In this document: piece by piece, positions 1-54,040 of the stretch
How positions within the stretch are numbered: position 1 is the first letter of the stretch
How the letters are laid out: every line of letters begins with the position of its first letter
Assembly (NCBI RefSeq): GCF_000226295.1
Contig: NC_016024.1
Coordinates: forward strand, 2,587,501 to 2,651,500
Reading direction: 5' to 3'
DNA length: 64,000 nt
Source: Chloracidobacterium thermophilum B
GTDB taxonomy: Bacteria; Acidobacteriota; Blastocatellia; Chloracidobacteriales; Chloracidobacteriaceae
The notes under the pieces: model-generated
Seen by the model: the letters and a program-made list of their open reading frames with translations, nothing else
Database searches by the model: none
What the model was told of the DNA's origin: nothing
Made by a program: the position numbers and the translations under genes

Positions 1-1629
1 CGTCCAGCTTCCCCACTGCACGGCATACAGTTTCGGCTGCCCCCATTCCGGCTTGTAGTTGATTTCCTCAATGGTCGTGAAACTGTAGGTTGGAGAGGAC
101 CCGATGCCGAGTTCTTCATTGAGAATGCGGTCGCCGACCTGCAGGTTACGTGCCTTGACCAGCTTGGCGGTTCCGTCCGGGTTCTTCACCCAGTCTCCAC
201 CGGCCGTGGGGTCCCACGGATTCTTCGGACGAAACACCCGGTAGCCGATATTGCCGGCTTCGCCATCCATCTGAATGGCCCGGAAGGAGCGGAACTGATA
301 GATACCAAAGTTGAGATCGAGTTCTGCGCCGGTGTTCCAGCAGATCATGCCGTAGCCAAAGACCACGGTGACGAAGCTGACAAACATGGTCGTCCCGACG
401 ATCTTCGTCTGGAGGTCGGGATTCTGGAACCAGGTGATGAACTTCGAGCGCGCCTGCTTGTACGCGCCGGAAATGTTCAGCCCATGCAGGTACTGCCCGC
501 CGTGGAAGACGCCCGCCGCCACATAGAGCAACCCGACCTGCACGTGGTTGAACGTGATCATGTTGTGAATCATCCGACCGGGATTGACGATCTTCTTCCC
601 GTAGATGATCACGTTCATGTCATTGAGCATCAGGTACGACGGGTGATTGCGCAGCGCCAGGAAGCCGACGATGGCCAGGGCAAAACTCACGTACCCGATG
701 GCCGTCAGGTGCACGTGGAAGACGGCCTTGGTGTCTTCCAGGTGCGTAATGTTGATACTGCGCGGCGGCCGATACCACCAGTACGCCCCAAGGGCCACGA
801 ACAGTACCCCCCAGACGAAACACATCGTGGTTTCGCCGTTGATGGTGTTCATCGGGTGCATGACCTGGTTGAGGTAGGGGTCAAACCAGCCATAAGGAAA
901 CGGTGCCTGTTCGAGGGGCATCAGCCCATTGGGCGTCATCACCTGGGCCGGCTGCAGCGGGACTGGCGGCTTGTCCAGCACAAACCACAGCACAAAGCCC
1001 CAGATGAAAAACAACAACCCGATGTAAATCGTGTGTGGACTCAGGGCGTCGGCGTAGGTGCGCCGCAGAATCGGCCAGGGCGTATTGGCAAAGCTCCCCC
1101 ACGGCAGCCCGACCTTGTACCACGGCCCTTCGGGCGTGAACCACTTGATCTGGCACAGTCCCTTGAGTCCGGGGACGTAGGGCAGGAGCCAGAAAATTTC
1201 GCCGATCGTGGCGCCCCCCCGCGCCCCGTAGTAGTGGGCAGCGCCGGCATAGACGAGCCAGAGTCCCAGGCCAATGTGGAAGCACCCCCAGCCAAAGAGC
1301 CGGAAATCGGTCATCGTCAGAGGATACTGTCCAAAAAACGGGAGCTTACTGGTGCTGAACTCACCAATGAGCGGCAGCCACACCCTCTGAATCTGTTCTG
1401 TGTCGTACGGGTCGTAAATCCCCAGTGAAATGAGACGTGGACGCAGCGTGAGATTCACATACCCGTCGTTCCACATCGTCATACTGGCGAAAAAGTACGT
1501 CCCAATCAGACATGCCAGCCCACCAATCAACATCATGTGCGCACCGAAAATGCGCTCCGGTGGCATCGGTAGTTCCAGCTTCTGGTACCACCGCTTCACC
1601 CCGTTGGCGTAGGACGAAAAGCTAGCCAT
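1..1629 (-). CDS. pscA: Type I photosynthetic reaction centre core protein PscA (N-terminal 543 residues, runs off window)
   Basis: Core polypeptide of a homodimeric type I (Fe-S type) reaction centre, a cytoplasmic-membrane protein that binds bacteriochlorophyll and drives light-dependent electron transfer. The reading frame is open from ATG 1629-1627 to the window edge; GGGAG lies about 8 bases upstream of the ATG. Seven hydrophobic segments are visible, near residues 28-49, 112-134, 199-218, 267-286, 303-326, 358-381 and 408-431, with His residues in or beside most of them (FGAHMM, CFHIG, FHVHLT, FNHVQVG, VFHGGQYLHG). This matches the six antenna helices plus helix VII of PscA. After helix VII comes a soluble stretch (residues about 432-543, ending AVQWGSWT). 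As I recall, the Chloracidobacterium PscA is about 865 residues with a large insertion at this point, so the window probably ends inside it. The core helices and the Fx cysteine motif lie beyond the edge. The family call is from sequence pattern; the species assignment is inference. Confidence 0.9.
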   Translation of the reverse strand, partial: MASFSSYANGVKRWYQKLELPMPPERIFGAHMMLIGGLACLIGTYFFASMTMWNDGYVNLTLRPRLISLGIYDPYDTEQIQRVWLPLIGEFSTSKLPFFGQYPLTMTDFRLFGWGCFHIGLGLWLVYAGAAHYYGARGGATIGEIFWLLPYVPGLKGLCQIKWFTPEGPWYKVGLPWGSFANTPWPILRRTYADALSPHTIYIGLLFFIWGFVLWFVLDKPPVPLQPAQVMTPNGLMPLEQAPFPYGWFDPYLNQVMHPMNTINGETTMCFVWGVLFVALGAYWWYRPPRSINITHLEDTKAVFHVHLTAIGYVSFALAIVGFLALRNHPSYLMLNDMNVIIYGKKIVNPGRMIHNMITFNHVQVGLLYVAAGVFHGGQYLHGLNISGAYKQARSKFITWFQNPDLQTKIVGTTMFVSFVTVVFGYGMICWNTGAELDLNFGIYQFRSFRAIQMDGEAGNIGYRVFRPKNPWDPTAGGDWVKNPDGTAKLVKARNLQVGDRILNEELGIGSSPTYSFTTIEEINYKPEWGQPKLYAVQWGSWT

Positions 1630-2009
1630 AAGCAACTCCCTACTACAGAGGACTTTCTCACCAACCACAGCCGCCACGTGGAAGCCACCTGGACGAGGCG
1701 TGGTGTCGTCAGCAACTTGACTTACGGGGACGCCGAAGCGGGGACGGAAACAATCCAGGACGGCGCGAGCGCGCCTCATTACAGGCCTTCTGCCGTCGCC
1801 CGTTCATCATGGAATCAGTGCGTAGAAAGTATCGGTGGCAACCGGCAGCGCTACCTGAACGTGATGGTTTCAACCTACTTTGACGGTCAATCGAGATCAA
1901 ACATTACTTCAGCGTCAGGCTTTGCCCGGCGCTTCAGAACCAGTTGACGGTCGCCCCAGGGACACGTGCATTGGTCATAACCCGGCGTCCGTGTTAGGTT
2001 TCCAGAGCT
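1630..2009. other. Divergent intergenic region between pscA and pdxT
   Basis: 380 bases with no convincing gene; the short open frames here have no family features. It must hold the pscA promoter (minus) and probably that of pdxT (plus), but I see no clear -35/-10 pair. Two small palindromes stand out: TTGACGGTCAA at 1880-1890, with a further ATCAAA just beyond it, and GGCGCGAGCGCGCC at 1762-1775. Either could be an operator for pscA or part of its leader; that is only a suggestion from symmetry and position. Confidence 0.4.
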
Positions 2010-2591
2010 ATGCGTGACCGGCAACCGATTGGCATTCTCAGTTTTCAAGGTGACTTTGCAGCCCATGCCGAGGCGCTTCGGCGGGCTGGCGCAACACCGC
2101 GTTTCGTGCGGCACATGGCCGACCTGACCGACCTGGCCGGACTTATCCTGCCAGGTGGAGAAAGCACGACCATGCTGCGCTTTCTCCAGGCGGAGCCGTG
2201 GTTTGCAGCCATACGGGAGTTTGCGGCGGCGGGGCGGCCGCTGCTGGGCACCTGCGCCGGGGCCATTCTGCTGGCGCGCGTCGTCACACAGCCGGCCCAA
2301 CCCTCACTTGGCCTTGTGGACATGACCGTACGGCGCAACGGCTACGGGCGGCAGGTGGATAGCTTTACCGCGACGCTGACCATCCCGCGCCTGGGCCCTG
2401 ACCCGCTCGAACTCGTCTTCATTCGCGCGCCCATCATTGAGTCCGTTGGCCCCAGTGTTGAGGTACTGGCCACCTGGGGCGATCATCCGGTGTGGGTTCG
2501 GCAGGGACAGATTTTCGCGGCCACCTTTCACCCGGAAATGACGGACGACGCTCGCATCCATCAGTTCGTCTTTGGCTTGAACCGGCCCTGA
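2010..2591 (+). CDS. pdxT: Pyridoxal 5'-phosphate synthase glutaminase subunit PdxT
   Basis: Class I glutamine amidotransferase that hydrolyses glutamine and passes ammonia to the PdxS synthase in the DXP-independent route to vitamin B6. 193 residues, the normal size. Visible features are GILSFQGDFAAH at the N-terminus, PGGEST (oxyanion region, about residue 47), GTCAGAI with the nucleophilic Cys (about residue 79), RNGYGRQVDSF (about 110), FIRAP and the C-terminal HPE that supplies catalytic His and Glu. Start is ATG at 2010. The PdxS partner is not in the window, which is unusual because the pair is often adjacent. The gene stands alone between pscA (divergent) and the tRNA-Leu terminator (convergent). 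Confidence 0.93.
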   Translation: MRDRQPIGILSFQGDFAAHAEALRRAGATPRFVRHMADLTDLAGLILPGGESTTMLRFLQAEPWFAAIREFAAAGRPLLGTCAGAILLARVVTQPAQPSLGLVDMTVRRNGYGRQVDSFTATLTIPRLGPDPLELVFIRAPIIESVGPSVEVLATWGDHPVWVRQGQIFAATFHPEMTDDARIHQFVFGLNRP

Positions 2592-2618: not shown

Positions 2619-2649
2619 AAATAAATGGCACGCGGTAGCCGCGTGCCAT
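2619..2649 (-). terminator. Rho-independent terminator after tRNA-Leu / secG
   Basis: Perfect 11-bp inverted repeat ATGGCACGCGG / CCGCGTGCCAT at 2625-2649 with a 3-base loop, read on the minus strand directly after the tRNA 3' end. It is followed by a T-rich run (complement of cgaaaaaaataa, 2613-2624). It would end the tpiA-secG-tRNA transcript. Confidence 0.85.
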
Positions 2650-2656
2650 GGTCAGG

Positions 2657-2739
<83 letters not shown>

Positions 2740-2800
2740 ATAATCTGCTTTGTCACTATACGTCCAAGCCGGGGTTGAAATCCAGAAAACCTGGCAATCC

Positions 2801-3319
2801 TTACTGGTTCTTCTTTGGCGTTTCCGGCTGGCTGCCGGCCTTTTGTCCGCCTTCTGATTCGGACTGGGACTGGGCTGGCTTGGCGTCTTTATTTTCCTTG
2901 TCGTTTCCCTTGTTTTCCTCTTTGGGCTTATCCTCACCTGCTTTAGGCGTATCCGCAGCCGGAGCCGCCCCGGCTGGGGTCTCCGTCACGGTGGCATCTT
3001 TCTTTTCTTCCGGCTTCGTCTCCTCTTTCGGCTTCTCTGACTTGGGCGGTGGCGGGGTATCCTTGATGCCCGAAGCCGCCGAACGTGGCAAAAGAATTCC
3101 TGGAATGGAAAAGGTGAACGCCAGCGCCATGAACAACCCGCCCAGAACAAACGTCACCCGTTCCAGGGGCTTTTGTGCGCCGCGCGGGCCGAAGGCAGTC
3201 TGGCTGCCGCCACCAAACAGAGCGATGTCACCCTTGCCGGGTTGAAGAAGTATCACACCAATGAGCAACAGGCAGACAAGGACAAAGAGCGCGTACAGCG
3301 CGTAAACGTACCAAGGCAT
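2801..3319 (-). CDS. secG: Preprotein translocase subunit SecG with a long charged tail
   Basis: Small integral-membrane subunit of the SecYEG channel, which stimulates SecA-driven export. The first 80 residues are classic SecG: hydrophobic segment about residues 5-26 ([20 protein letters not shown]), the conserved QPGKGD and FGGG, then [14 protein letters not shown] and a second membrane segment about residues 55-77. Most SecG proteins end soon after. Here about 90 further residues follow, almost all Lys, Glu, Pro, Ala, Gln and Ser ([13 protein letters not shown] and so on), probably a disordered tail. It lies 67 bases downstream of tpiA on the same strand and just before tRNA-Leu, a gene order found in many bacteria. 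Confidence 0.9.
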
Positions 3320-33464: not shown

Positions 33465-33554
33465 TGGCGGAGAAGGAGGGATTCGAACCCTCGGTACGCT
33501 TTCGCGTACACCGGTTTAGCAAACCAGCGCACTAGGCCACTATGCGACTTCTCC
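33465..33554 (-). tRNA. tRNA-Ser (anticodon GCU)
   Basis: Class II tRNA on the minus strand. Acceptor GGAGAAG/CTTCTCC with discriminator G and encoded CCA (33467-33465). Anticodon stem CTGGT/ACCGG with loop TTGCTAA gives GCT (GCU). The long variable arm GTACGCGAAAGCGTAC is a perfect hairpin, and the T arm is GAGGGTTCGAATCCCTC. Confidence 0.96.
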
Positions 33555-47660: not shown

Positions 47661-48063
47661 CCAGACAGGACGAGCTTGCACGCGCGAACAGACACATTGG
47701 CGGCTCTCAGCGCACGCTCGTGGAAGTTCGACTTCAACCCCCACGCGCGCTTTAACTGATACGTACCGGGCGAACAATGGAAAAGTGAAACGCTTTTGGG
47801 CCGGTGTCTGGAGTACTGACGGAAGGACGACTTGCGGCGTGCCGTGAAGGAGCACTGCTGGGTGCTGGGGTGCGAGAATGCCGAGTTTGAAGCGTAAACA
47901 AGGGGGCTGGGGCCGTCAGGGACGGGAGTGTTCACAAGCTGCACCCCACGGATGCCCCTCAGACAGAAGCGAAAAAACCCGCAAGACGCGGAGTCTGGAA
48001 CGGTTCGCCGGCAGGATGCGTCGGAACGTAGCGCGAGTGTCTTTTCAAATCAGATTCTCATGA
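47661..48063. other. Non-coding stretch with a possible gene-tail relic
   Basis: 403 bases between the methylase and tmRNA with no intact gene; the open frames on both strands here look like noise. One stretch may be a relic: 47826-47897 reads DDLRRAVKEHCWVLGCENAEFEA then stop, which looks like a genuine protein C-terminus, and an adjacent frame reads NGKVKRFWAGV just before it. A DUF499 ATPase would be expected at this place in the island, but the match is too short to claim. Confidence 0.3.
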
Positions 48064-48429
48064 TGGAGATGGAGGGAGTCGAACCCTCGTCCGCGAACCT
48101 TCGGTGCCGGAGACTACGTGCGTAGTCGCTTCCGTCGTTTCTCGTACCCCGGCTGCCGGAACAGCGACCTGAAGCCGCCGGGATACCAGCCCAGTGCTAT
48201 CTCGCGGCGACGCCCCAGGCGTAACGTCGCCGCCAGCTCGTGAAGGTCACGCCCGCTTCATTCGGCACGAGCCACCAAATGAGCAGACGGCTCAGCAGTG
48301 ATTAGGCTGCGAGAGCGAGTTCCTGCGTTTCGGCAGGTAATTGTTTCCACGCTTTTTGACGAGCGGCATGGACGCCCGGCACGCCTCACGTGCACCTCAT
48401 AATGTCCACGTCGAAACCGTGTCATCCCC
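48064..48429 (-). ncRNA. ssrA: Transfer-messenger RNA (tmRNA)
   Basis: Rescues stalled ribosomes together with SmpB. On the minus strand the 5' end GGGGATGACACGGTTTCGAC pairs its first seven bases with the 3' CATCTCC. The T arm GAGGGTTCGACTCCCTC lies just before it. CCA is not encoded (TCA follows the discriminator A). The resume codon appears to be GCG at 48352-48350, giving the tag AWKQLPAETQELALAA and stop TAA (48304-48302); the ALAA end is the usual protease signal. About 366 nucleotides, normal size. Confidence 0.95.
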
Positions 48430-53966: not shown

Positions 53967-54040
53967 TGGCTGGGAGACAGGGATTCGAACCCCGATACTC
54001 TGGTCCAGAGCCAGATGTCCTACCATTGAACGATCTCCCA
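53967..54040 (-). tRNA. tRNA-Gln (anticodon CUG)
   Basis: Minus-strand cloverleaf with acceptor TGGGAGA/TCTCCCA, discriminator G and encoded CCA (53969-53967). D arm contains CAATGGTAGGACA. Anticodon stem TCTGG/CCAGA with loop CTCTGGA gives CTG (CUG). T arm CGGGGTTCGAATCCCTG. Confidence 0.95.

Follow-up and report, generated by a model that had tools for sequence, protein, structure and literature searches.

PscA of Chloracidobacterium thermophilum B: identification of the reaction-centre gene at a window edge and comparison of its gene cluster and periplasmic wing among relatives

Chloracidobacterium thermophilum is a hot-spring bacterium. The window analysed here is a 64 000-nucleotide stretch of strain B (C1:2587501-2651500; C1 comprises 2,683,362 bases). 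The genome of this strain, reported in 2011, amounts to 3,695,372 bp in two chromosomes (PMC8245765). An open frame on the minus strand (window 1-1629) is truncated by the window's left edge and codes for residues 1-543 of the 865-residue protein PscA; the gene extends leftwards to C1:2586532, stop codon counted, and is complete at L002:7032-9629, a locus that takes in the adjoining DNA left of the window. The start codon ATG was read at window 1627-1629 (-). It is preceded, 6 bases upstream, by the ribosome-binding site GGGAG (window 1636-1640, minus strand), which supports the start MASFSS, as in PDB entry 7VZR, rather than the mechanical open-reading-frame start at 1779. A long plus-strand open frame opposite pscA was taken to mirror a G+C-rich gene and set aside.

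Divergent from pscA lies a glutaminase-like gene (window 2010-2591, plus strand), which from its motifs we take to be pdxT-like. Three tRNA genes were located at window 2660-2739, 33468-33554 and 53970-54040, all on the minus strand; the first falls inside a mechanical plus-strand open frame (2625-3245), which makes that frame an improbable gene. A tmRNA gene is present at window 48061-48429 (-) with a score of 170.6 bits.

The translated fragment was compared with PDB chains using phmmer. All 543 of its 543 residues were identical to 7VZR chain A (1298 bits), and the green-sulphur-bacterial PscA (6M32) was matched with E = 3.6e-45. The whole protein was identical to 7VZR_A, the PscA of C. thermophilum (PDB 7VZR, 7VZG; PMC9751088), over 865 of 865 residues, with no difference, and matched the solved Type I reaction centres 6M32 (E 1.1e-109) and 5V8K (E 1.9e-26). 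The Pfam family PsaA_PsaB was reached at E 4.1e-7 over residues 693-800, above the curated cut-off, only with full-length PscA, which explains why the window fragment alone yielded no family. This genome gave a single match each to PscA and to PF00223, indicating one core gene and not a psaA/psaB pair. From these comparisons, window 1-1629 is almost certainly (probability about 0.99) pscA of C. thermophilum B, encoding the core subunit of a homodimeric Type I reaction centre, in keeping with the PscA-like gene that the original prediction had placed at this edge and with the alignment to Chloracidobacterium PscA that it had proposed as a check.

Two other readings of the gene were weighed. The protein might belong to a different, undescribed lineage and merely resemble that of Chloracidobacterium. 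Such lineages do exist, as the PscA of six further genomes in the genus is 95-98% identical to that of strain B and a more distant PscA occurs in one genome of a second genus, but the complete identity with 7VZR already refutes this reading, which we regard as highly improbable. That the gene encodes an unrelated multi-helix membrane protein, for example of a tetraspanin-like family, can be dismissed as next to impossible: the part of PscA in the window gave only a weak tetraspanin match in Pfam (E 0.042, below the cut-off), whereas the full protein gave the PsaA_PsaB, 6M32 and 5V8K matches listed above.

The helices of PscA were located by a Kyte-Doolittle hydropathy scan, which gave 11 peaks between residues 32 and 857. 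Exactly seven fall within residues 1-543, the number predicted for the visible part: helix 1 (residues 32-50, window 1480-1536), helix 2 (111-129, window 1243-1299), helix 3 (200-218, window 976-1032), helix 4 (267-285, window 775-831), helix 5 (308-326, window 652-708), helix 6 (357-375, window 505-561) and helix 7 (410-428, window 346-402), all on the minus strand. Helix 6 closes the antenna domain and helix 7 opens the electron-transfer domain (split according to PMC9751088). The four helices sought in the DNA to the left are present (helices 8-11, about residues 652-670, 713-731, 776-794 and 839-857), bringing the total to 11. The Fx cysteine motif sought beyond the edge was likewise found: the 4Fe-4S motif FPCIGPVKGGTC occupies residues 694-705 between helices 8 and 9, contains C696 and C705 (two cysteines per chain) and aligns with FPCLGPVYGGTC of 6M32. 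H784 was found in helix 10 at the position of the special-pair histidine, and is named as the Zn ligand of the special pair in the published structure (PMC9751088).

The identity, helices, Fx motif and gene cluster were computed here, while the pigments, ligands and electron path are taken from the published structure. Cryo-EM structures of the C. thermophilum reaction centre (PDB 7VZR and 7VZG, 2.2-2.6 Å) describe the 11 helices and an additional wing (PMC9751088). In the PscA homodimer, helices 1-6 hold antenna pigments and helices 7-11 the electron-transfer chain; light energy passes from the chlorosome through FMO and the PscA antenna pigments to the special pair P840 of Zn-BChl a', ligated by H784, and the electron travels from P840 via Chl a and Fx, which is held by cysteines of both chains, to FA/FB in PscB (PMC9751088). 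On the published structure, the electron would then pass from FA/FB to ferredoxin. Two hemes acting in series, those of PscX and PscY, return P840+ to its reduced state (PMC9751088).

The PscA of Chlorobaculum tepidum (6M32) shares the 11-helix Type I core and the Fx motif FPCxGPVxGGTCGVS, and the electron-transfer part of the strain B protein was aligned with it over residues 645-864; it differs in having no wing of about 200 residues between helices 7 and 8. Heliobacterial PshA (5V8K) also forms a homodimeric Type I core, its electron-transfer domain being aligned over residues 647-851 (E 1.9e-26), but it is a 600-residue chain without the wing, and heliobacteria have neither FMO nor chlorosomes. 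The donor cytochromes differ from those of green sulphur bacteria, Chloracidobacterium having PscX/PscY where they have PscC, and PscZ stands in for their PscD (PMC9751088).

Between helices 7 and 8, PscA carries a unique stretch of some 205 residues (N440-H644), the wing, which forms a wing-like structure in the periplasm (PMC9751088). Its first half (residues 440-543) occupies window 1-312 (-), as placed by the published description (PMC9751088) and by the 6M32 alignment, in which a step of about 20 residues in the target spans residues 443 to 645 of the query. The large insertion anticipated after helix VII is thus found in both sources. The visible tail, given in the prediction as about residues 432-543, does form part of it, although the published insertion starts at N440 and not at about 432. 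The composition ascribed to this tail was half right. It is rich in Asp and Lys (5.0 and 6.0% in residues 444-543, against 3.2 and 3.0% in PscA outside the insertion) but not in Trp and Tyr (5.0% each, against 4.8 and 5.0%).

When the wing was searched alone against Pfam, no family exceeded its cut-off; the best match was a glycoside hydrolase insertion domain (E 0.0095, in two of four members). Among PDB chains only the wing itself was recovered, the next match, mbSHANK1 (E 0.027), being unconvincing, and nothing was found in plasmids and viral contigs. Across 396 genomes of the phylum, the wing was found only in Chloracidobacterium, apart from two weak matches (E 0.0015 and 0.0047; 37-38% over 71 residues of a helical hairpin), which were rejected as relatives because they look like chance helix similarity. 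An AlphaFold2 model from four wing sequences was poor, with a mean pLDDT of 51.7, and was confident only in the helical hairpin, at about wing residues 126-192. The published salt bridges to PscX/PscY use D55, E267, D337 and K346, all outside the wing (PMC9751088). We infer the wing (440-644) to be a surface domain specific to this family, which may bind something in the periplasm or shield the donor side.

Downstream of pscA, to the left of the window, the genes follow on one strand of L002 in the order pscA-pscB-fmoA-arsA-pscY-pscX. The downstream fmoA gene that had been looked for is therefore present, with pscB in between. PscB has 173 residues and eight cysteines in two 4Fe-4S motifs; the fmoA product matches PF02327 with E = 3.2e-86, the only such match in the genome. 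The gene that separates fmoA from those of the donor cytochromes (L002:3622-4887, minus strand; genome C1 about 2583122-2584387) encodes an ATPase of the ArsA/GET3 family (PF02374, E 4.2e-70; TIGR00345, 214 bits against a cut-off of 135). The last two products are monoheme cytochromes c with one CxxCH heme site each, related to each other at about 31% in cross-matches. They are taken to be PscY (Cabther_A2184) and PscX (Cabther_A2183) from their place and order; the published account names PscX and PscY as donors of this reaction centre (PMC9751088). Scanning the cluster for promoters and terminators gave no more hits than expected from shuffled sequence. In a literature search, Chloracidobacterium, ArsA and reaction center were not found together.

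Among 162 genomes of the class, PscA was found, always at full length, in strain B and six others of the genus. A genome from a second genus of the family (G007; loci L006/L007) also has it, with the gene split over two contigs and 82-87% identical; it was absent from two further genera of the family. When 396 genomes sampled from the phylum were searched, FMO (PF02327) matches were confined to the genus Chloracidobacterium; G007 yielded no entry in that sample. The order of the six genes is kept in two further loci (L003 and L005), in L004 until the contig ends inside pscY and, for the parts present, in the second genus (L007). The arsA gene stands between fmoA and pscY in both phototrophic genera, at 80-94% identity. 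Chloracidobacterium was described in 2021 as the only genus in the phylum that is phototrophic (PMC8245765).

Among members of the genus, identity is 87-96% for the wing and 99-100% for domain 645-865; between L007 and strain B it is 98.6% for the electron-transfer domain (645-865) but 74% for the wing, which carries a nine-residue deletion in L007. The wing is thus the part that changes fastest, as would be expected of a surface domain without cofactors. It is conceivable, though we consider it doubtful, both that the wing is a family-specific domain docking a periplasmic partner and that the ArsA-type ATPase is a dedicated factor for assembly or membrane insertion of the reaction centre; neither role was found reported in the literature searched.

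The recognition of a Type I reaction centre from raw sequence was a sound reading, given the small number of phyla in which such centres are known. The gene, protein and three-dimensional structure of C. thermophilum PscA are already in the literature, and their identification here adds no new biology. What goes beyond the papers examined is the presence in a second genus of the six-gene cluster, including the ArsA/GET3-type ATPase, together with a wing that has diverged far more there than the electron-transfer domain.
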